A program made the translations under genes and the position numbers. From Pseudoleptotrichia goodfellowii (GTDB lineage: Bacteria; Fusobacteriota; Fusobacteriia; Fusobacteriales; Leptotrichiaceae), in assembly GCF_007990505.1 (NCBI RefSeq), contig NZ_AP019822.1, positions 124,001 through 188,000 of the forward strand: a stretch of DNA of 64,000 bases. Direction: 5' to 3'. Below, in pieces: positions 31,730 through 41,391 of this stretch. The notes under the pieces are model-generated. The model did no database searches. It had not been told where the DNA came from and saw only the letters and a program-made list of their open reading frames with translations. The first letter of the stretch is position 1, and every line of letters begins with the position of its first letter.

Positions 31730-33310
31730 ATGGAGAATAATTCAAAAGAATCTAAAGAAGGAATACAAAGATCGGAATTACATCGTAAGATATGGTCTAT
31801 TGCAGATGAAGTACGTGGAGCTGTAGACGGATGGGATTTTAAACAGTATGTACTAGGCATACTGTTTTACAGATTTATCTCAGAAAATATGGTAACTTTT
31901 TTTAATTCTGCCGAGCATGAGGCGGGAGATTTGGAGTTTGATTACTCAAAAATAAGTGATGAAGAAGCTGAAAGAGATTTCAGACCTAATACTGTGGAAG
32001 ATAAAGGATTTTTTATTTTGCCGAGTCAGTTATTTGAAAATGTAGTAAAAAATGCTGCAAAAAATGAGAATTTGAATACCGACTTAGCCAATATTTTTAA
32101 ATCTATAGAAGCCAGTGCAATCGGGTTTGCTTCGGAAAATGATATTAAAGGATTATTTGAAGATGTAGACACTACAAGTAACCGATTGGGCGGAACTGTT
32201 GCCGAGAAAAATAAAAGATTGACAGATATTTTGACAGGGATTTCGGAAATAAACTTCGGGAAATTTGAAGAAAATGACATAGATGCGTTCGGAGATGCTT
32301 ATGAATATTTGATCTCAAATTATGCAAGTAACGCAGGAAAGTCGGGAGGAGAATTTTTTACTCCTCAAACGGTTTCAAAATTATTGGCAAGACTTGTAAT
32401 GGAAGGGAAAACAAGTATTAATAAAGTGTATGATCCGACTTGTGGAAGCGGTTCGTTACTACTGCAAATGAAAAAGCAGTTTGAAGAACATATTATAGAC
32501 GAAGGATTTTTCGGACAGGAAATAAATATGACCAACTTTAACCTTGCCCGTATGAATATGTTTCTGCATAATATAAACTATAATAATTTTTCGATTAAGC
32601 GAGGAGATACTCTACTTAATCCACTGCATAGCGAAGAGAAACCCTTTGATGCTATTGTTTCCAATCCTCCATACTCGATTAAATGGATAGGGGACGGAGA
32701 TCCTACACTTATAAATGATGAGCGTTTTGCACCTGCAGGAAAGTTAGCACCTAAGTCTTATGCGGATTATGCTTTTATTATGCATTCTTTAAGTTATCTC
32801 TCAAGTAAAGGACGGGCAGCTATAGTATGCTTTCCGGGCATTTTCTATCGTAAAGGAGCGGAACAGACTATTCGCAAATATCTTGTAGATAATAACTTTA
32901 TAGACTGTGTTATACAACTTCCTGAAAATCTGTTTTTTGGAACATCTATCGCTACATGTATTTTAGTTATGGCAAAAAATAAAACTGAAAACAAAGTGTT
33001 ATTTATAGATGCGAGTAAAGAGTTTAAGAAAGAAACAAATAACAATATTTTGGAAGAGAAAAATATAGAAAATATTGTTGAAGAATTTAAAAACAGGTCT
33101 GATAAAGAGTATTTTTCAAGATACGTAGACAAGAGTGAAATTGAAGAAAATGACTACAATCTTTCGGTTTCTACATATGTGGAAAAAGAAGATACAAGGG
33201 AAATAATTGATATAAAAGTTTTAAATAAAGAGATTGAAGAAACGGTAATAAAAATTGACGCTTTAAGAGCTTCTATAAATGAAATAGTAAAGGAGCTTGA
33301 AGATGAGTAA
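31730..33310 (+). CDS. hsdM: Type I restriction-modification methyltransferase subunit HsdM
   Basis: The 526-residue protein has an N-terminal HsdM helical domain (residues 10-160), a SAM-binding motif DPTCGSGSL (235-243) and the catalytic NPPY (312-315) of N6-adenine methyltransferases. Together with HsdS it methylates the target; with HsdR it forms the restriction complex. CAGGAGGAA precedes the ATG. It overlaps the rhuM-like gene by eight bases and heads the operon hsdM-rhuM-hsdS-hsdR. Confidence 0.96.
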
Positions 33311-34310
33311 TGAAATAATTATTTATAATACAGATGACGGAAAATCTAAAATAGAGCTTCATCTTGAAAATAATACTGTTTGGCTGAATCAGATGGAGTT
33401 AGCAGAGCTTTTTCAAACGAGTAAGCAAAATATAAGTAAACATATAAAAGCTATTTTTGATGACGGAGAATTGGAGAAAAAAGTGGTTGTCAACTATAAG
33501 TTGATAACCACTCAACACGGTGCAATAGAAGGAAAAACACAAACTAAAGAGGTGGCATATTATAATCTGGATATGATACTTGCAATAGGTTATCGTGTGC
33601 GTTCTCCACGTGGAATACAGTTCAGAAATTATGCTTCGACTATTTTGAAAGAATATTTGATAAAAGGCTTTGCTATGAATGATGAAAGGTTAAAAGAATT
33701 TGGCGGAGGTACTTATTTTAAAGAGCTCTTAGAACGTATTCGGGATATTCGTTCAAGCGAAAAAGTATTTTATCGTCAGGTATTAGATTTATTTGCGACA
33801 AGTATTGATTATAATTCAAAGAGCGATGAAGCCAAAAAGTTTTTTGCAACGGTGCAAAATAAGATACATTATGCAATTCATCATAATACAGCGAGTGAAC
33901 TGGTATACGATAGAGTAGATGCCGAAAAAGAATTTATGGGATTGACTTCTTTTAAAGGGAATCTGCCAACAAAAAAAGAGGCAGAAACTGCGAAAAACTA
34001 TCTTTCAGAGAAAGAATTAAGAGGTCTTAATCAACTCGTTTCGGGATATTTGGATTTTGCCGAAAGACAGGCGGAAAGAGAAATACAGATGACAATGAAA
34101 GACTGGATAAATCATGTGGATAACATATTAAAAGCTACGGGCGAGGATTTGCTGGAAGGTAACGGTAAAATTACAAGGCAGAAAATGAAAGAAAAAGTAA
34201 ATGAAGAATATAAGAAATTTCAGCAGAAAACTCTTTCACAAGTGGAAAAAGATTATTTGAAGGAGATAAAGGAGATTGAGAAGAGGGTAAAAGAAAAAGA
34301 GAAACGATAA
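33303..34310 (+). CDS. RhuM-family protein within the type I locus
   Basis: The start is the ATG at 33303, seven bases after AAGGAG; a TTG six bases earlier is less likely. The 335-residue protein has the RhuM N-terminus ([23 protein letters not shown], a helix-turn-helix-like segment near residue 35) and the [19 protein letters not shown] block. The C-terminus is a charged coiled coil. RhuM genes are common in type I R-M and defence loci, but their role is not established. It overlaps the end of hsdM. Confidence 0.9.
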
Positions 34311-34376
34311 AATGTATAAATTGGAAAATTAAATAATAAAAAAATAAAGCAATTTTTTAAAATGTTAAAATTTTTA

Positions 34377-34405
34377 TTGACAATAATATATAATTTATAT
34401 ATAAT
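34377..34405 (+). promoter_or_regulatory. Consensus promoter of a small RNA
   Basis: TTGACA (34377-34382) and TATAAT (34400-34405) are both perfect matches with exactly 17 bases between. Transcription should start near 34412. It lies between the rhuM-like gene and hsdS. Confidence 0.85.
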
Positions 34406-34411
34406 ATTTGT

Positions 34412-34482
34412 AAGTGATAGGCTCAATTCTACGAGAGGCGAGCAGAACCCTTACAATTCTACGAGAGGCGTAAGGGTTTTTT
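34412..34482 (+). ncRNA. Twin-hairpin small RNA with identical loops
   Basis: The predicted transcript is about 70 nt. Two hairpins have different stems but the same 15-base loop, AATTCTACGAGAGGC. Hairpin 1 is closed by GCTC/GAGC (34421-34424 with 34440-34443) and hairpin 2 by AACCCTTAC/GTAAGGGTT (34446-34454 with 34470-34478). The 17-base direct repeat CAATTCTACGAGAGGCG starts at 34424 and 34454. Hairpin 2 is also the intrinsic terminator. The RNA is followed at once by the C-terminal remnant of an Abi-family gene, like the arrangement at 59.3 kb, so it may be an RNA antitoxin. Confidence 0.7.
34446..34482 (+). terminator. Intrinsic terminator of the twin-hairpin RNA
   Basis: AACCCTTAC pairs with GTAAGGGTT and is followed by six T residues (34477-34482). 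Confidence 0.88.
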
Positions 34483-34484
34483 GT

Positions 34485-34673
34485 TTATTAGCAATATTAA
34501 AACTATTTTTATTGAAATAGGATTTCGATTCTTTAAAAAGAAAATTTAAGAAATATTTGGAAAGATTGGAAATAGATCTTTCTGATAATCAGGAGGCTTT
34601 TAAAAAGATAAAAACAAGCAGATTAAAACTTCCTTTAGATTGGGAATATATTTTAAATATAATTTGGAAATAA
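34485..34673 (+). pseudogene. C-terminal remnant of an Abi_2/AbiF-like gene
   Basis: The frame reads LLAILKLFLLK, an in-frame TAG at 34518, then DFDSLKRKFKKYLERLEIDL and on to LKLPLDWEYILNIIWK before TAA (34671-34673). This order (hydrophobic helix, charged helix, and a final P-x-x-W-E block) is like the C-terminus of Abi_2 family proteins. There is no start codon, and about 240 expected N-terminal residues are absent. It begins three bases after the small RNA's T-run, which suggests a deletion that spared the RNA. The family assignment is by pattern only. Confidence 0.5.
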
Positions 34674-34725
34674 GAAAATTTTGTTTTATAAAAAGATAAT
34701 AATCAAAATATAGCGAGGCTTAAAA

Positions 34726-35943
34726 ATGACTAAAATAGAAAAATTATTAAAGAATGAAAAAGTGGAGTGGAAGAAATTGGGGGAAGTTTGTGAGATAGTA
34801 AAAGGAAAGCAATTTAATAAAAGAGATATGTTAGAAGAGTCTTTATATCCAGTGATAAATGGAGGGATATTACCATCTGGATATATTGAAGTGTTTAATC
34901 AAGAAGCTAATACAATTACAATTTCTCAAGGAGGAGCCTCAGCTGGATATGTAAATTTTATAGAAAATAGATTTTGGTTGGGAGCACATGCTTATGCTAT
35001 TATTCCAAGAGAAAAAATCTTAAAAAGATATGTTTATCATTTTCTTAAAATGAATCAAGAGAAGCTGCAAGAAAGGCAAGAAGGGGCAGGAATTCCCAGT
35101 ATAGCAAAATCTGTTTTAGAAAATTTAGAAATCCCAATTCCTTCATTGGAAACTCAGGAAAAAATTGTAAAAATACTTGACAAATTCACAAATTATGTTA
35201 CTGAATTACAATCTGAATTACAATCTGAATTACAATCGAGAACTAAACAATACAATTATTATAGAGATAAGTTGCTTAGTGAACAGTATTTGAATAAGAT
35301 TTCTGAGAAGATTGATAAATTTGAAGATAAAGAATACAAATTAAGAGTTACTACTCTTGGAGAAATTGGTGAAATAAAAATGTGTAAAAGAATTTTAAAA
35401 GAACAAACTTCTACAAAGGGAACAGTTCCTTTTTATAAAATAGGGACTTTTGGAAAAAAAGCAGATTCATTTATTTCACGAGAAATTTTTGAAGAATACA
35501 AAAAAAAGTATAGTTATCCCAAAAAAGGAGAAGTATTAATTTCTGCAAGTGGAACAATAGGAAGAACTGTTATTTTTGATGGTGAAGATTGTTATTTTCA
35601 GGATAGTAATATTGTTTGGCTTTCGCATAATGAAAGTAAAGTTTTGAATAAATATTTATATTACTATTATCAAATAGTTAATTGGAATCCTTCAAGTGGA
35701 GGGACTATAAAAAGAATGTATAATTATAATTTAGTTAATATGAAAATATTTTTACCACCGATAGAAATTCAAGATAAAGTAGTAAAAGTTTTGGATAAAT
35801 TTCAAGAATTATTGAAAGACACAAAAGGATTATTGCCACAAGAAATAGAACAAAGACAAAAACAATATGAATATTATCGTGAGAAGCTATTGACTTTTGA
35901 CGAAAAATGTGGTAACACACACACACACACACACACACAATAA
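34726..35943 (+). CDS. hsdS: Type I restriction specificity subunit HsdS, phase-variable end
   Basis: The 405-residue protein has two target-recognition domains: one from KVEWKKLGEVCEI (residue 14) to about 145, the second from LRVTTLGEIGEIK (about 206) to about 345. Each is followed by a conserved helical spacer (PSLETQEKIVKILDKF; PPIEIQDKVVKVLDKF). The central spacer contains three ELQS repeats (35203-35238). The reading frame ends inside and just after a (AC)12 tract (35915-35938), giving a THTHTHTHTQ tail. Loss of one CA unit, or gain of two, would fuse it in frame with the third recognition domain at 36000-36554. GAGG lies upstream of the ATG. Confidence 0.93.
   Translation: MTKIEKLLKNEKVEWKKLGEVCEIVKGKQFNKRDMLEESLYPVINGGILPSGYIEVFNQEANTITISQGGASAGYVNFIENRFWLGAHAYAIIPREKILKRYVYHFLKMNQEKLQERQEGAGIPSIAKSVLENLEIPIPSLETQEKIVKILDKFTNYVTELQSELQSELQSRTKQYNYYRDKLLSEQYLNKISEKIDKFEDKEYKLRVTTLGEIGEIKMCKRILKEQTSTKGTVPFYKIGTFGKKADSFISREIFEEYKKKYSYPKKGEVLISASGTIGRTVIFDGEDCYFQDSNIVWLSHNESKVLNKYLYYYYQIVNWNPSSGGTIKRMYNYNLVNMKIFLPPIEIQDKVVKVLDKFQELLKDTKGLLPQEIEQRQKQYEYYREKLLTFDEKCGNTHTHTHTQ
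35203..35238 (+). repeat. Three 12-base repeats in the hsdS spacer (ELQS)3
   Basis: GAATTACAATCT occurs at 35203, 35215 and, with one change at the last base, 35227. It encodes ELQS three times. In EcoR124 a 12-base repeat coding TAEL at the same place varies in number and changes the spacing of the recognised sequence. Confidence 0.9.
35915..35938 (+). repeat. Dinucleotide tract (AC)12 in hsdS
   Basis: Twelve perfect AC units lie at the 3' end of hsdS. At the present length the frame stops at 35941-35943. The frame leading into the third recognition domain is open from just after the stop at 35913 through the tract to 36554. Slippage by one unit down or two up would connect the two. Confidence 0.95.
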
Positions 35944-36554
35944 TTCCTAATAATTTCTTTAATTTATTAAAAGAAGCGACAGAGATTATTGAAATTGATT
36001 TGTTTGAAAAAGTAGAGTGGAAGAAGTTGGGGGAGATAATAGATTATGAACAACCTACAAAGTACATCGTAAATTCCACTCAATATGATAATAAATTTAA
36101 AATACCTGTCTTAACTGCAGGTCAAACATTTATTCTTGGATACACCAATGAAATAGAGGGGATTTATAAAGCTAGTAAAGAAAATCCTGTTATAATATTT
36201 GATGATTTTACAGCTAGTAATCATTGGGTTGATTTTGAATTTAAGGTTAAATCATCAGCAATGAAAATTTTAAAATCTAAAAACCAATTTGTAAATCTTA
36301 GATATTGTTATCATTATATAAAAACTATAAATTTTGATGTTACAGAACATAAGAGAATATGGATATCAAAATATTCACAATTAGAAATCCCAATCCCTCC
36401 ATTGGAAACTCAGGAAAAGGTTGTGAAAATCCTCGATAAATTCGATACTTTAATAAACGATTTATCCCAAGGGTTACCGAAAGAAATAGAATTAAGACAG
36501 AATCAATATGAATATTATAGGGAAAAATTATTGGATTTTCCAAAAGAAAATTAA
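35940..36554 (+). CDS. Third HsdS target-recognition domain (half specificity subunit)
   Basis: The frame is open from the CA tract onward (IIPNNFFNLLKEATEIIEID), then enters a half HsdS starting FEKVEWKKLGEI. One recognition domain of about 130 residues is followed by the conserved spacer IPPLETQEKVVKILDKF and QNQYEYYREKLL. The first possible start on its own is a TTG at 36000 without a clear ribosome site, so independent expression looks weak. It is best read as a C-terminal extension of the upstream HsdS that is switched on by slippage, though a separately made half subunit is possible. Confidence 0.8.
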   Translation: MIPNNFFNLLKEATEIIEIDLFEKVEWKKLGEIIDYEQPTKYIVNSTQYDNKFKIPVLTAGQTFILGYTNEIEGIYKASKENPVIIFDDFTASNHWVDFEFKVKSSAMKILKSKNQFVNLRYCYHYIKTINFDVTEHKRIWISKYSQLEIPIPPLETQEKVVKILDKFDTLINDLSQGLPKEIELRQNQYEYYREKLLDFPKEN

Positions 36555-36607
36555 TTTTGAAGATAAAATGCAGAAAAATATATTTTTATAAATAAAAAGG
36601 AGTAAAC

Positions 36608-39600
36608 ATGTCGGAAGAAGTAGCAAAGTATAATATATCAGCAATTGCTGAGATGACAAACGGAATTATTTTAGCTAATTATAAAAAGGATGATCATATA
36701 CAGGAACCGGGTTTTCAAACTGAAACGCAGTTAGAAAATGATATGATAAAAAATCTTGTATCGCAGGGTTACGAAAAACTTGAAGCAACTTCAAATGAGG
36801 ATTTATACAAAAATTTGAAAGTTCAAATAGAAAGATTGAATAAAGTAACATTTACACAGGAAGAGTGGAGACGTTTTTTAGTTGAATATTTAGATGCTCC
36901 CAATGATGGTATGACTGAAAAAACACGTAAAATTCAGGAAAATCATATTTATGATTTTATATTTGATGACGGGCATTTGAAAAATATTAAAATTATAGAT
37001 AAAGAAAATATCCATAATAATATTTTGCAGGTCGTACATCAGATAAATCAGAAAGGAAAACATAATAATCGTTACGATGTAACTGTTCTTGTGAACGGGT
37101 TGCCCCTTGTGCATATAGAATTGAAAAAGCGGGGAGTAAATATTCATGAAGCTTTCAATCAAATTCACAGATACAGTAAGGAAAGTTTTAATGCGGAAAA
37201 TTCACTATACAAATATGTACAGATATTTGTGATTTCCAACGGAACTTATACCAGATATTTTGCGAATACGACAGCTCAAAGTAAAAATAATTATGAATTT
37301 ACTTGCGAATGGGCAGATGCCAAAAACAAAGTAATTAGAGATTTGGAGGACTTTACAAAAACATTTTTTGAAAGACGTACAATTCTTGAAGTTTTGACAA
37401 AATATTGTGTATTTGATGCGAGCAATACTTTGCTTATAATGAGACCTTATCAAATAGCGGCGACTGAACGTATTTTGTGGAAGATAAAGTCGAGCTATGA
37501 AAGTAAAAAGGCAGGGAAAACAGAAGCAGGGGGATTTATCTGGCATACTACGGGGTCGGGGAAGACACTTACTTCATTTAAAACGGCAAGGCTGGCAACC
37601 GAGCTTGATTATATTGATAAAGTCTTTTTTGTAGTTGACAGAAAAGATTTGGATTATCAGACAATGAAGGAGTATCAAAAGTTTCAGCCTGACAGTGTAA
37701 ACGGAAGTAAAGATACCAAAGAACTTAAAAGAAGTATAGAAAAACAGGATAATAAAATAGTCGTTACTACAATTCAAAAGCTAAATGAATTTGTGAAGAA
37801 AAATCCTAATCATGAAATATACGGTAAACATTGTGTTCTTATTTATGACGAGTGTCATCGTTCTCAGTTCGGAGATGCTCAAAAAAATATAAGAAAAGCG
37901 TTTAAATATTATTATCAGTTCGGATTTACAGGTACACCGATATTTCCGGAAAATTCATTAGGCGGAGATACTACTTCGGGAGTATTCGGGGCACAATTAC
38001 ACAGTTATGTTATTACAGATGCTATTCGTGACGGGAAAGTACTGAAATTTAAAGTTGATTATAATAATATCAGTGCGAAGTTTAAATCTGCAGAGACTGA
38101 AACAGACGAAAAAGAACTGAAAAAACTTGAAAGAAAGATGCTGCTTCATCCTGATAGAATTTCCGAGATTACTAGACATATTTTAAGAGTTTTTGATGTT
38201 AAGACTCATCGTAATGAATTATACAGCGTGAAGCAACGTCAATTAAGTGGCTTTAATGCAATGTTTGCAGTTCAAAGTGTAGAAGCGGCGAAACTTTATT
38301 ATGAAGAATTTCAAAAACAGCAGGAAAATTTGTCTGAAGAAAAAAGGCTGAAAGTAGCTACAATATACAGTTTTTCTGCTAATGAAGAACAGACTGCTAT
38401 TGGAGAAATTTTTGAAGAAAATTTTGAACCGAATGCTTTGGATTCCACTGCAAAAGAGTTTTTGGAAAAGGTAATAAATGATTATAACGGATATTTTAAA
38501 ACGAATTTTTCAACTAACGGAAATGAATTTCAGAATTATTATAAAGATTTGTCAAAAAAAGTAAAAAATAAAGAAATTGATTTATTAATAGTAGTCGGAA
38601 TGTTTTTAACAGGATTTGATGCTCCAACTTTAAACACGTTATTTGTTGATAAAAATCTGAGATATCACGGATTAATTCAGGCTTTTTCAAGAACAAACCG
38701 TATTTTGAATAAAGTCAAAACTTTCGGAAATATTGTATGTTTCAGAAATTTGGAAAAAGCAACACAGGACGCTATAAAGACGTTTGGAGATGAAAACAGT
38801 GTAAATATTATTTTAGAGAAAAGTTATGAGGAATATATTAACGGATTTAAAGATGAGGAAACGGGAAAAACAGTCAAAGGATATACTGATATATGTAAAG
38901 AAATTATTGAAAAATTCCCTGAGCCTACAGAAATTGTCCTTGAAGCTGATAAAAAAGAATTTGTTCAATTGTTCGGAGAACTTTTAAAATCTCAAAATAT
39001 ACTTAGAAATTTTGATGAATTTGAGAACTTTGAAAGTGGAATATCCGACAGACAAATGCAGGATATGAAAAGTGTCTATGTCGATATAAGAGAAGAAATA
39101 CTAAATTCAAAATCACAAGAAAATAGCAGTAACAGTTCACAAATTGATTTTTCCGATGTTGAGTTTCAGATTGATTTATTGAAAACGGATGAGATTAATT
39201 TAGATTATATTTTGACTTTGATATTGGAAAAATCTAAAGAAAGTGAGGATATAGAATCTTTGAAATCCGAAATTCGGAGAGTTATCCGTTCGAGCCTTGG
39301 GACACGGGCTAAAGAGGAGCTTATTATAGAGTTTATTAATAAAACGAAGTTATCCGAACTGAAAAACAATAGCGATATTCTTGAATCTTTTTATAAATAT
39401 GCGAAAAAAGAAAGAGAAGCAAAAATTGATGAATTAGTGAATGAAGAAAAATTGAAAGATGATTCCAGGAGATTTATTAAAAAGTCTATTGATAAAGGAT
39501 GCGTGGAATATGCAGGATCAGAACTCGACAGTATATTACCACCGACTTCCCGTAGGCAGGGAGCTCGCGAGGCTAAAAAACTTAGTGTTTTAGAAAAAAT

Positions 39601-39634
39601 TAGAAAGATTGTTGAGGTTTTTGTGGGGGTTTAG
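36608..39634 (+). CDS. hsdR: Type I restriction endonuclease subunit HsdR
   Basis: The 1008-residue protein has an N-terminal PD-(D/E)XK nuclease (D157 in RYDVTVLV, E171 and K173 in IELKKR), a Walker A motif TTGSGKT (314-320), a DECH box (414-417), GFTGTP, and the helicase QAFSRTNR motif near residue 695. The C-terminus (ILPPTSRRQGAREAKKLSVL) is the region that binds the methyltransferase core. It translocates DNA and cuts away from the site. AAAAGGAG precedes the ATG. A decayed copy of its last 250 bases lies at 40038-40288. Confidence 0.96.
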   Translation: MSEEVAKYNISAIAEMTNGIILANYKKDDHIQEPGFQTETQLENDMIKNLVSQGYEKLEATSNEDLYKNLKVQIERLNKVTFTQEEWRRFLVEYLDAPNDGMTEKTRKIQENHIYDFIFDDGHLKNIKIIDKENIHNNILQVVHQINQKGKHNNRYDVTVLVNGLPLVHIELKKRGVNIHEAFNQIHRYSKESFNAENSLYKYVQIFVISNGTYTRYFANTTAQSKNNYEFTCEWADAKNKVIRDLEDFTKTFFERRTILEVLTKYCVFDASNTLLIMRPYQIAATERILWKIKSSYESKKAGKTEAGGFIWHTTGSGKTLTSFKTARLATELDYIDKVFFVVDRKDLDYQTMKEYQKFQPDSVNGSKDTKELKRSIEKQDNKIVVTTIQKLNEFVKKNPNHEIYGKHCVLIYDECHRSQFGDAQKNIRKAFKYYYQFGFTGTPIFPENSLGGDTTSGVFGAQLHSYVITDAIRDGKVLKFKVDYNNISAKFKSAETETDEKELKKLERKMLLHPDRISEITRHILRVFDVKTHRNELYSVKQRQLSGFNAMFAVQSVEAAKLYYEEFQKQQENLSEEKRLKVATIYSFSANEEQTAIGEIFEENFEPNALDSTAKEFLEKVINDYNGYFKTNFSTNGNEFQNYYKDLSKKVKNKEIDLLIVVGMFLTGFDAPTLNTLFVDKNLRYHGLIQAFSRTNRILNKVKTFGNIVCFRNLEKATQDAIKTFGDENSVNIILEKSYEEYINGFKDEETGKTVKGYTDICKEIIEKFPEPTEIVLEADKKEFVQLFGELLKSQNILRNFDEFENFESGISDRQMQDMKSVYVDIREEILNSKSQENSSNSSQIDFSDVEFQIDLLKTDEINLDYILTLILEKSKESEDIESLKSEIRRVIRSSLGTRAKEELIIEFINKTKLSELKNNSDILESFYKYAKKEREAKIDELVNEEKLKDDSRRFIKKSIDKGCVEYAGSELDSILPPTSRRQGAREAKKLSVLEKIRKIVEVFVGV

Positions 39635-39720
39635 AAAGAGAAGTAAATAATTATATTAACTAACTCAATAAAATCAACTATGTACTTTGGAGATTATTTT
39701 TTTCTCACTGCCTAAAATAG

Positions 39721-39748
39721 TTGACATTTTTCGAAAAAGTGCTATAAT
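39721..39748 (+). promoter_or_regulatory. Strong promoter P1 of the small RNA at 39.75 kb
   Basis: TTGACA (39721-39726) and TATAAT (39743-39748) are 16 bases apart, with a TGC extended -10. The expected start is near 39755. Confidence 0.85.
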
Positions 39749-39754
39749 ATACGT

Positions 39755-39838
39755 ACCTATAGGGCAAACCCCAAAGGGTAACTTATTAAAGAAATAAAAT
39801 TTGTGAACATAAAAGGCTGGTGTTTTCCAGTCTTTTTT
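39755..39838 (+). ncRNA. Candidate antitoxin small RNA
   Basis: About 84 nt from P1 to a hairpin (GGCTGG 39815-39820 with CCAGTC 39827-39832) followed by six T residues. It also has an ACCC-CAAA-GGGT hairpin (39768-39779). TTATTAAAGAAATA (39783-39796) and TTTGTGAA (39800-39807) are exact reverse complements of 39868-39881 and 39856-39863 in the leader of the downstream small peptide, reaching its ribosome binding site. It could act in trans as antitoxin or form a long stem in a read-through transcript. Confidence 0.6.
39811..39838 (+). terminator. Terminator of the small RNA
   Basis: GGCTGG pairs with CCAGTC (one G-U) with a six-base loop and TTTTTT at 39833-39838. Confidence 0.75.
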
Positions 39839-39846
39839 GTTATAAT
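39838..39846 (+). promoter_or_regulatory. Possible second promoter P2 for the peptide mRNA
   Basis: TGT-TATAAT is an extended -10 immediately after the small RNA's terminator. No good -35 is present. It would give an mRNA leader of about 40 bases. Confidence 0.35.
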
Positions 39847-39893
39847 TTTGTTGGCTTCACAAAGCCATATTTCTTTAATAAAGAGGTACTGCA

Positions 39894-39950
39894 ATGCTTA
39901 AAATAGCAGCTGTACTGATTTTTCTTTTAATCAGTTACAATTTATTTTAA
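39894..39950 (+). CDS. 18-residue hydrophobic peptide, candidate type I toxin (Ibs-like)
   Basis: The frame encodes MLKIAAVLIFLLISYNLF, with AAGAGG seven bases before the ATG. It is a single short membrane-spanning helix with a basic start. The length and the LLIS-aromatic end resemble the Ibs toxins of E. coli (18-19 residues, type I toxin-antitoxin). Its leader is complementary over 14 plus 8 bases to the small RNA just upstream. Downstream are an ACCC-UUCG-GGGT hairpin (39964-39975) and a terminator. No convincing antisense promoter was found, so the RNA upstream is the likelier regulator. Toxicity is inferred. Confidence 0.55.
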   Translation: MLKIAAVLIFLLISYNLF

Positions 39951-39963
39951 TCATCAGACCTCA

Positions 39964-40012
39964 ACCCTTCGGGGTAAAAAACTTTCATGATATAAAAGCC
40001 GTGATTTTTTTT
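39964..40012 (+). terminator. UUCG hairpin and terminator of the peptide mRNA
   Basis: ACCC-TTCG-GGGT (39964-39975) is a stable tetraloop hairpin. TCATG (39985-39989) pairs with CGTGA (40000-40004) and is followed by eight T residues. Confidence 0.6.
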
Positions 40013-40037
40013 AATTTTGAAAAAATAAAATTATTTT

Positions 40038-40288
40038 AATCTTTTTATAAATATACAAAAAAGAAAGAGAAGCAAAAATCGATAAGTTAGTGAACGAAGA
40101 AAAATTGAAAGAGAATTCCAAGAGATTTATTAAAAAGTCTATTGATAAAAGGTAAGTGGAATAATGAGGATCGGAACTCAACAATATATTACCGTCGACT
40201 TCCCGTAGGCAGAGAGCTCGTGAGGCTAAAAATTCAATATTTTAGAAAAAATCAGAAAGATTGTTGAGGTTTTTGTGGGAGCTTAGAA
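40038..40288 (+). pseudogene. Duplicated, decayed 3' end of hsdR
   Basis: The sequence follows hsdR bases 39384-39637 closely, including GACTTCCCGTAGGCAG (39543-39558 and 40198-40213) and GTTGAGGTTTTTGTGGG near the stop. Point changes and a small insertion near 40152 (after TCTATTGATAAAAGG) break the frame. The two copies bracket the small RNA and peptide module. Confidence 0.9.
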
Positions 40289-40317
40289 AAAAGACATTGA
40301 TGGGGCTGTCTTTTTTT
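40287..40317 (+). terminator. Terminator after the hsdR copy
   Basis: AAAAAAGACA (40287-40296) pairs with TGTCTTTTTT (40307-40316), with a ten-base loop. It separates the R-M region from the leftward nuclease gene. Confidence 0.75.
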
Positions 40318-40334: not shown

Positions 40335-41354
40335 TTAACTAGATTTTTTTGATAAAAAATTTATCCACTTTTTTATATTTTTTGGAATAATGTTTTGAAT
40401 TTTTAAATCTTTATTTTGAACAAAATGATATAAATTTTCAGATGTGATTTCTTTTATGTAATTTTTATGTTGTTCTTTAGAGAAAGTAACTTTTCCTTTA
40501 GTAGTCAAAATATAAACTTCATTATTATCGTTAATAAGATGTTCATAGTTTTTAGTTTCTAAATTAATCTCTCCGTTTTTAACTTGAATATAAGCAGTTT
40601 TTCCGGTTTTATAATTTAATAAAACACATTCATATAACTCTGTGGAATTTTTATTAGTTGAAGGTATACAAATATATCCTTTTTTATAGAATAAATACAT
40701 ACAAACTAAATCTTCACAATCAGAAGGAGATAAATAATTAAAAAAAGTTTCACAATCATTTTCAAAATTATCAAAATTGTATTTTTTATCTTTTATATTT
40801 TTTTCATCTATCAATCTATTATATTCAAGTTTGGAAAATTCAGGTATACCTTTTTTATGAATTTTCTGTAATGTTCTTCCTCTAATAAATGCAGTAGTTA
40901 AACTTCCAGGAATAGAACTTTCATCTCCAATTTTAATCCAATCAATTGAGTTTATATAGTTTGCTGCATCTTTATTTAAATATTCCTCTTCATAACAGTA
41001 ATTATATTTGCTATTTTCCTTTACCTTTCCTAAAAAATAAATTCCCCTATCTCTAATCCAAATTAAATCTCCAAATTTTACAGAATTTGCTAAATTTCTC
41101 ACACAGTTTATATCTTTATATAGTTGTTTTTTATATTTATTATAAAAATTTTCGTAATCATTGAAATTTTTAATAAGATTTCTCTTATTTTTTATTTCTT
41201 CAAATTTTCGACTATCTCCTTTTGAAAGTCTTTCTAAATCTTTATCCAATAAACTCCAACCTATAGCAGCTGTTCTTTTTTCTATAAGAAAAGGAGCAAT
41301 ACTTTGCCCATCTGATGAGGCTGTATTTGTCTGTAATCTCCATATATTAGTCAT
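40335..41354 (-). CDS. Putative PD-(D/E)XK (Mrr-like) nuclease of the defence island
   Basis: The ATG at 41354 follows GGAGG; an earlier in-frame ATG (41387) lacks one. The 339-residue product has an N-terminal domain (IWRLQTNTASSDGQSIAPFL; GDLIWIRDRGIYFLGKV) that looks like a PUA/EVE-type reader fold. The C-terminal part has SPSDCEDLVCMYLFYKKGY and TAYIQVKNGEI, an E-D...Q-V-K arrangement typical of Mrr-like nucleases. This design occurs in modification-dependent restriction enzymes. The reader specificity is unknown. It lies opposite to hsdR and beyond guaA. Confidence 0.65.
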   Translation of the reverse strand: MTNIWRLQTNTASSDGQSIAPFLIEKRTAAIGWSLLDKDLERLSKGDSRKFEEIKNKRNLIKNFNDYENFYNKYKKQLYKDINCVRNLANSVKFGDLIWIRDRGIYFLGKVKENSKYNYCYEEEYLNKDAANYINSIDWIKIGDESSIPGSLTTAFIRGRTLQKIHKKGIPEFSKLEYNRLIDEKNIKDKKYNFDNFENDCETFFNYLSPSDCEDLVCMYLFYKKGYICIPSTNKNSTELYECVLLNYKTGKTAYIQVKNGEINLETKNYEHLINDNNEVYILTTKGKVTFSKEQHKNYIKEITSENLYHFVQNKDLKIQNIIPKNIKKWINFLSKKSS

Positions 41355-41391
41355 AAATCCTCCATATTTATTTTTTGAATTCTGCATAGCT

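Follow-up and report, generated by a model that had tools for sequence, protein, structure and literature searches.

In this study, we analyzed a window of 64,000 nt of Pseudoleptotrichia goodfellowii DNA, in which a compact unit with all elements on the + strand was recognized by sequence inspection at 39721–40012. Its first element is a promoter (39721–39748, +) that matches the consensus in 12 of 12 positions, with TTGACA at 39721–39726, a 16-nt spacer, TATAAT at 39743–39748 and a TG before the −10, and that is kept at the same place in relatives. It is followed by a predicted antitoxin sRNA of ~84 nt (39755–39838, +), the assignment of which is based on promoter, terminator, predicted fold and a family covariance model. 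The sRNA 5′ region (39755–39779, +) is predicted to form a GGG/CCC hairpin, and such a C/G-rich hairpin was seen again in most units of the family. Two antisense blocks come next: block 1, TTATTAAAGAAATA (39783–39796, +), is complementary in 14 of 14 positions to the leader of the downstream mRNA directly 5′ of its Shine-Dalgarno (SD) sequence, and this complementarity covaries; block 2, TTTGTGAA (39800–39807, +), is complementary in 8 of 8 positions to the loop of the mRNA 5′ hairpin and is present again in relatives with a different sequence. The sRNA ends with an intrinsic terminator (39811–39838, +), a GGCTGG TGTTTT CCAGTC hairpin with T6, the stem of which covaries.

The T run of this terminator is abutted by the extended −10 of the toxin mRNA, TGTTATAAT (39838–39846, +), which is kept in relatives. 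The toxin-mRNA leader of ~45 nt extends from a 5′-terminal hairpin (39852–39867, +; TGGCTT CACA AAGCCA), with a stem covarying in 29 units, to the SD sequence AGAGG (39882–39886, +) of an 18-codon open reading frame (ORF). On the loop side of the hairpin lies the target of block 2 (39856–39863, +), and the 14-nt target of block 1 (39868–39881, +) ends at the SD. The ORF (39894–39950, +) encodes MLKIAAVLIFLLISYNLF, a predicted membrane toxin of 18 aa with homologues in relatives. The 3′-untranslated region (UTR) contains an anti-SD, CAGACCTC (39955–39962, +), which pairs with GAGGT(A)CTG over the SD and start region (39883–39891), a tetraloop hairpin ACCC UUCG GGGT (39964–39975, +) that is kept behind the peptide gene, often as CCCUUAGGG, and a probable mRNA terminator according to the predicted fold (39987–40012, +). 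The promoter, the ~84-nt RNA, both exact blocks and the peptide ORF had been proposed in a first-pass annotation, and each was recovered in the sequence at these positions. In Leptotrichia, the sRNA 5′ hairpin (39764–39776 in the window) and the mRNA 3′ hairpin (39964–39975) read CCCUAAGGG and CCCUUAGGG, which are exact complements, so that a second kissing contact would be possible.

The unit sits between hsdR (36608–39634) and a degenerate copy of the hsdR 3′ end. The 3′ end at 39381–39637 is repeated at 40035–40289 as a remnant of ~88% identity downstream of the unit, which is thus flanked by two hsdR tails. Positions 31730–39634 constitute a restriction locus of type I, in which hsdM and hsdS are separated by a RhuM-family gene (33297–34310) and a second, partial hsdS (36000–36554) is present. 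A gene for a 350-aa protein (40335–41387, −) without Pfam match adjoins the unit. For the hsdR homologues found in Leptotrichia, no unit was listed beside them.

The window unit belongs to a family not described before, with copies in oral and gut relatives of Leptotrichia. In BLAST searches with the window DNA, the source genome proved to contain more copies, and 26 of 60 relatives gave matches. A covariance model of the unit, built from 29 units, detected units in 24 of 33 Leptotrichiaceae-like genomes and, among 98 genomes of the phylum beyond this family, was positive in only one, a member of the Fusobacteriaceae. With E-values up to 1e-4, 83 units were obtained from 22 genomes of the family, with a maximum of 9 per genome. 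Hosts include Leptotrichia and Sebaldella beside the source genome of 2.29 Mb, which carries 7 units, one of them split by a transposase insert. Units are located on chromosomes, in a prophage and on the two plasmids of Sebaldella termitidis; tandem arrays contain up to 6 of them, spaced by ~290 bp. As the collection of units required a terminator/−10 motif and an ORF, the conservation of these two features is partly selected for, whereas pairing was not selected for. The exact collection scan for the terminator/−10 junction found nothing beyond Leptotrichia and one viral contig, and the E. coli genomes searched contained no match to the unit. At the Rfam gathering score, tmRNA alone matched within the window; relaxed thresholds gave only weak matches (e.g., 22.7 bits versus a cut-off of 50), none of them credible.

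The surroundings of other copies were also inspected. Copy 2 of this genome lies inside a prophage: the region shares 4424 consecutive 24-mers with an IMG/VR contig on which terminase and portal genes are located. A degenerate copy at 1067732 has a phage integrase on one side and another hsdR on the other. ParA is the neighbour of one unit of genome G028, and a PemK/MazF gene lies near one of the plasmid copies of S. termitidis. This genomic context would suit a genome-guarding or element-stabilising use, and carriage in prophage, plasmids, arrays and next to ParA resembles that of addiction modules. Two copies of this genome (L003 and L006) look disabled by ATT instead of a start codon and by a premature stop. 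At three loci (L018, L024 and L017), the sRNA gene is retained and the peptide gene downstream of it is degraded or missing. Hardly any toxin gene was wholly devoid of a matching sRNA in this search, which was anchored mostly on the sRNA; such a scarcity is expected of addiction modules.

For 56 units, pairing of each sRNA with its own leader was compared with pairing between units. Cognate duplexes reached a mean of −23.8 kcal/mol versus −11.5 kcal/mol for non-cognate ones (z = −26.6), and none of 200,000 permutations was as good. This preference of the sRNAs for their own leaders was seen with 25 units and then with 56. Since non-cognate duplexes within a genome average only −11.2 kcal/mol, base composition is excluded as the cause. 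In the in-register helix, 12 positions are 86–100% paired with 2–4 Watson-Crick types each, and covariation was also detected in the stems of the mRNA 5′ hairpin and of the sRNA terminator. Poor in-place pairing was found for unit L127 of G023 (−9.1 kcal/mol) and unit L138 of G010 (−14.2 kcal/mol). In the Fusobacteriaceae genome (G046), two units follow the same RNA plan with a 35-aa peptide and form duplexes of −34.6 and −37.5 kcal/mol. These two units (L120) encode near-identical peptides and differ in their 14-nt codes, which suggests use of the RNA plan with another toxin.

On the basis of complementarity and covariation, together with conserved signals and a peptide under purifying selection, we conclude that the unit is probably a type I toxin-antitoxin system with a tandem, co-directional layout, to which we assign a probability of roughly 0.86. 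The first-pass annotation had already proposed such a system, and the proposal held up in that pairing is kept in paralogs and relatives with compensatory changes. Type I toxins are small hydrophobic proteins under 60 aa, and the peptides of the window and its relatives are of this kind. Pairing of the RNA with the toxin mRNA, a further feature of the type, is indicated by covariation over 56 units together with the registered pairs, and the predicted sRNA is flanked by a conserved consensus promoter and a conserved terminator, signals that a distinct small RNA would need.

A second layer of control is suggested by the mRNA itself. In almost every unit, an anti-SD lies in the 3′ UTR, within 35 nt of its start, and complements the region from SD to start, CACCUCUACUCCUC with GAGGUAGUGAGAUG in Leptotrichia and AUUCCUC with GAGGAAU in Sebaldella; compensatory cases include UCACUC with GAGUGA and AUUCCCC with GGGGGAU. 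This fold-back is better in cognates, both overall (0 of 100,000 permutations) and within genus groups (9 of 20,000); the signal needed a window including the start codon, and a shorter SD window gave none. In Leptotrichia alone, cognates had no fold-back advantage (−14.0 versus −14.5) because SD and anti-SD hardly vary there. The predicted openness of the SD rises from 0.14 in the full-length mRNA to 0.42 without the 3′ UTR, and with a threshold of 0.2, removal of the 3′ UTR opens the SD more in 27 of 53 units and less in 0. The full-length toxin mRNA is thus predicted to be translationally closed by the anti-SD. In the window copy, a local hairpin (39868–39890) shuts the SD even after 3′ truncation (0.01 unpaired), unlike in most relatives; it is possibly a transient lock as in aapA3.

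The peptide comprises 18 aa in the window, 18–21 aa in most relatives and 35 aa in G046; Sebaldella peptides have 18–19 aa, e.g., MTRLLVVIILYMVITKVLH. For the proposed system, conservation of the peptide was a check named in advance, and the groups with enough members proved to be under purifying selection: three peptide groups, each with at least 9 distinct coding sequences, show pN/pS values of 0.27–0.59, indicative of translation and of protein-level selection. The group to which the window peptide belongs, with pN/pS 1.5 and no sign of purifying selection, consists of three sequences, too few to inform. Four family members of 20–21 aa had no match in Pfam and NCBIfam; the 18-aa window peptide falls under the 20-residue limit of this search. 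The tiny membrane peptide is probably a self-toxin. Alternatively, the RNA circuit could be the same and the peptide non-toxic, i.e., a small membrane protein that serves in housekeeping or stress and is silenced by the adjacent sRNA. Toxicity is a prediction, and several peptide classes, including the 35-aa peptide of G046, are found on one control platform. We nevertheless consider a non-toxic peptide unlikely, as arrays, carriage on plasmids and in a prophage, and a double translation lock are typical of toxins and not of useful small proteins.

Several displaced partners bear on whether the sRNA acts as a free molecule. In a tandem array of G027 (L019/L047; C1 581196–583161), duplexes are strong crosswise (−30.4 and −26.1 kcal/mol) and weak in place (−12.3 and −11.4 kcal/mol); the two units, ~1.8 kb apart, have exchanged antitoxins. 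In the genome studied here (G000, C1 894161–895700; L005 and L011), the sRNA at 894169 pairs with the leader at 895525 at −32.8 kcal/mol over a distance of 1.36 kb, with a segment that contains a Y2 (IS91-like) transposase in between. At L015 (G009, C1 2220878–2224029), a mobile insertion lies inside the sRNA terminator, with the matching sRNA beyond the insert. Displaced and swapped partners favour action in trans, although recent insertions could preserve complementarity by inertia. A cis-acting leader would instead consist of a single transcript that starts at the upstream promoter and includes both segments, and its inverted repeat would fold on itself as an attenuator or RNA thermometer to control the small peptide gene, with no free sRNA. 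Both segments are on one strand, and pairing in cis would covary equally; however, in nearly all units the segments are separated by a T-run terminator followed by an extended −10, and partners are still matched across inserts and when swapped within the array. A purely cis-acting leader is therefore improbable in our judgement.

At the window locus, the duplex has an energy of −22.6 kcal/mol, which dinucleotide shuffling equalled in 10 of 20,000 sequences. This energy was also equalled by 27 of 2552 pairs of the same geometry over the AT-rich window (~1%), real hairpins among them. Because shuffles and window background reach this value, the window locus alone is suggestive only. The family-wide covariation puts the window pairing far beyond chance. 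Hence, chance complementarity in AT-rich DNA beside a random short hydrophobic ORF, for which the 1-in-2000 shuffling result and the window background would speak, can be dismissed for practical purposes, as it is refuted by the permutation test and by covariation in dozens of paralogs and relatives.

For the preferred reading as a type I toxin-antitoxin system, the following course of events is proposed. The strong promoter would constantly provide the short antitoxin RNA, and the weaker extended −10 directly behind the sRNA terminator would give rise to a toxin mRNA opening with a stable hairpin. The full-length mRNA would be closed at birth by the 3′ UTR anti-SD on SD and start, and removal of this lock, e.g., by 3′ trimming, would make the SD accessible. 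The antitoxin RNA could then dock on the 5′ hairpin loop via its 7–8-nt block, after which the ~14-nt block would zip against the SD; the resulting duplex would block ribosome entry and probably invite cleavage by RNase III. If the unit or the sRNA is lost, the mRNA would be freed and the 18-aa hydrophobic peptide would harm the membrane. RNA reading through from the sRNA promoter would presumably be silenced in cis, since one RNA would carry both partners.

Ibs peptides comprise 18–19 mostly hydrophobic residues and occur in several copies per genome. The peptide of the window had been called Ibs-like in the first-pass annotation, which is justified by size and hydrophobicity alone; these and the multiple copies per genome are shared, and the gene layout is unlike Ibs/Sib, where Sib is antisense to the ibs ORF itself on the opposite strand, whereas the window RNA lies upstream on the same strand. 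With aapA/IsoA and hok/Sok, the family shares a small hydrophobic peptide and, as predicted, antisense RNA control. In aapA and hok mRNAs, the SD is masked by a long-distance 5′–3′ interaction and becomes accessible only after trimming of the 3′ end, and aapA has a 5′-terminal stem-loop (PMC6733600); the window family is predicted to share the stem-loop with aapA as well as the SD-hiding interaction. IsoA and Sok, however, are encoded on the opposite strand, overlapping the toxin gene, whereas the window sRNA is encoded upstream on the same strand without overlap and is complementary to its target in only two short blocks. In tisB/IstR-1, zorO/OrzO, shoB/OhsC and dinQ/AgrB, the antitoxin gene is adjacent with limited pairing in the mRNA leader (PMC4147584). 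The window unit likewise has its antitoxin gene beside and not opposite the toxin gene, and limited leader pairing. These systems are divergent with long leaders and pairing away from the start; in the window, genes are co-directional, the leader has ~45 nt and pairing abuts the SD.

Fst (par) resembles the unit in that short direct antisense blocks lie close to the start of the toxin, both RNAs contain hairpins and copies are carried on plasmids. RNA I and RNA II of Lpt/Fst are convergent (PMC5608710), whereas the window genes are co-directional, and the peptides differ. In type III ToxIN, which has been reported in Fusobacteria (PMC4147584), the antitoxin RNA also precedes the toxin gene on the same strand, and a terminator separates the two. 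There, repeat RNAs bind a nuclease toxin, while the window unit encodes a tiny peptide as predicted toxin, and its RNA pairs with the mRNA; no tandem repeats were found in 39755–39838.

In the literature covered, which was partial and included the reviews in PMC4147584, no type I system was found for which an antitoxin gene upstream of and co-directional with the toxin gene has been described. According to a paper from 2025, type I systems were known only from Proteobacteria, Firmicutes and Tenericutes, and the paper claims the first cyanobacterial one (PMC12390103). A literature search for type I systems with Leptotrichia or Fusobacteria found no report. A new type I toxin-antitoxin family with a co-directional layout not found described is the best reading of the sequence data. 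Beyond this, we lean towards a co-directional type I addiction platform specific to Fusobacteriota. Its RNA chassis, made up of a promoter, a docking hairpin, a barcode of ~14 nt and a fold-back lock, would be conserved and combined with exchangeable toxic peptides; tandem arrays would diversify orthogonal barcodes by compensatory change, and partners could be swapped or separated with control kept.

Owing to the co-directional layout, searches for opposite-strand RNAs would miss the family. If the reading is true, the family adds Fusobacteriota to the phyla with type I systems, and its dozens of members are distributed over chromosomes, plasmids and a prophage. The many paralogs, each with a pairing code of its own, would represent a natural experiment on the divergence of RNA–RNA specificity, and the paralog set would offer ready orthogonal riboregulators.
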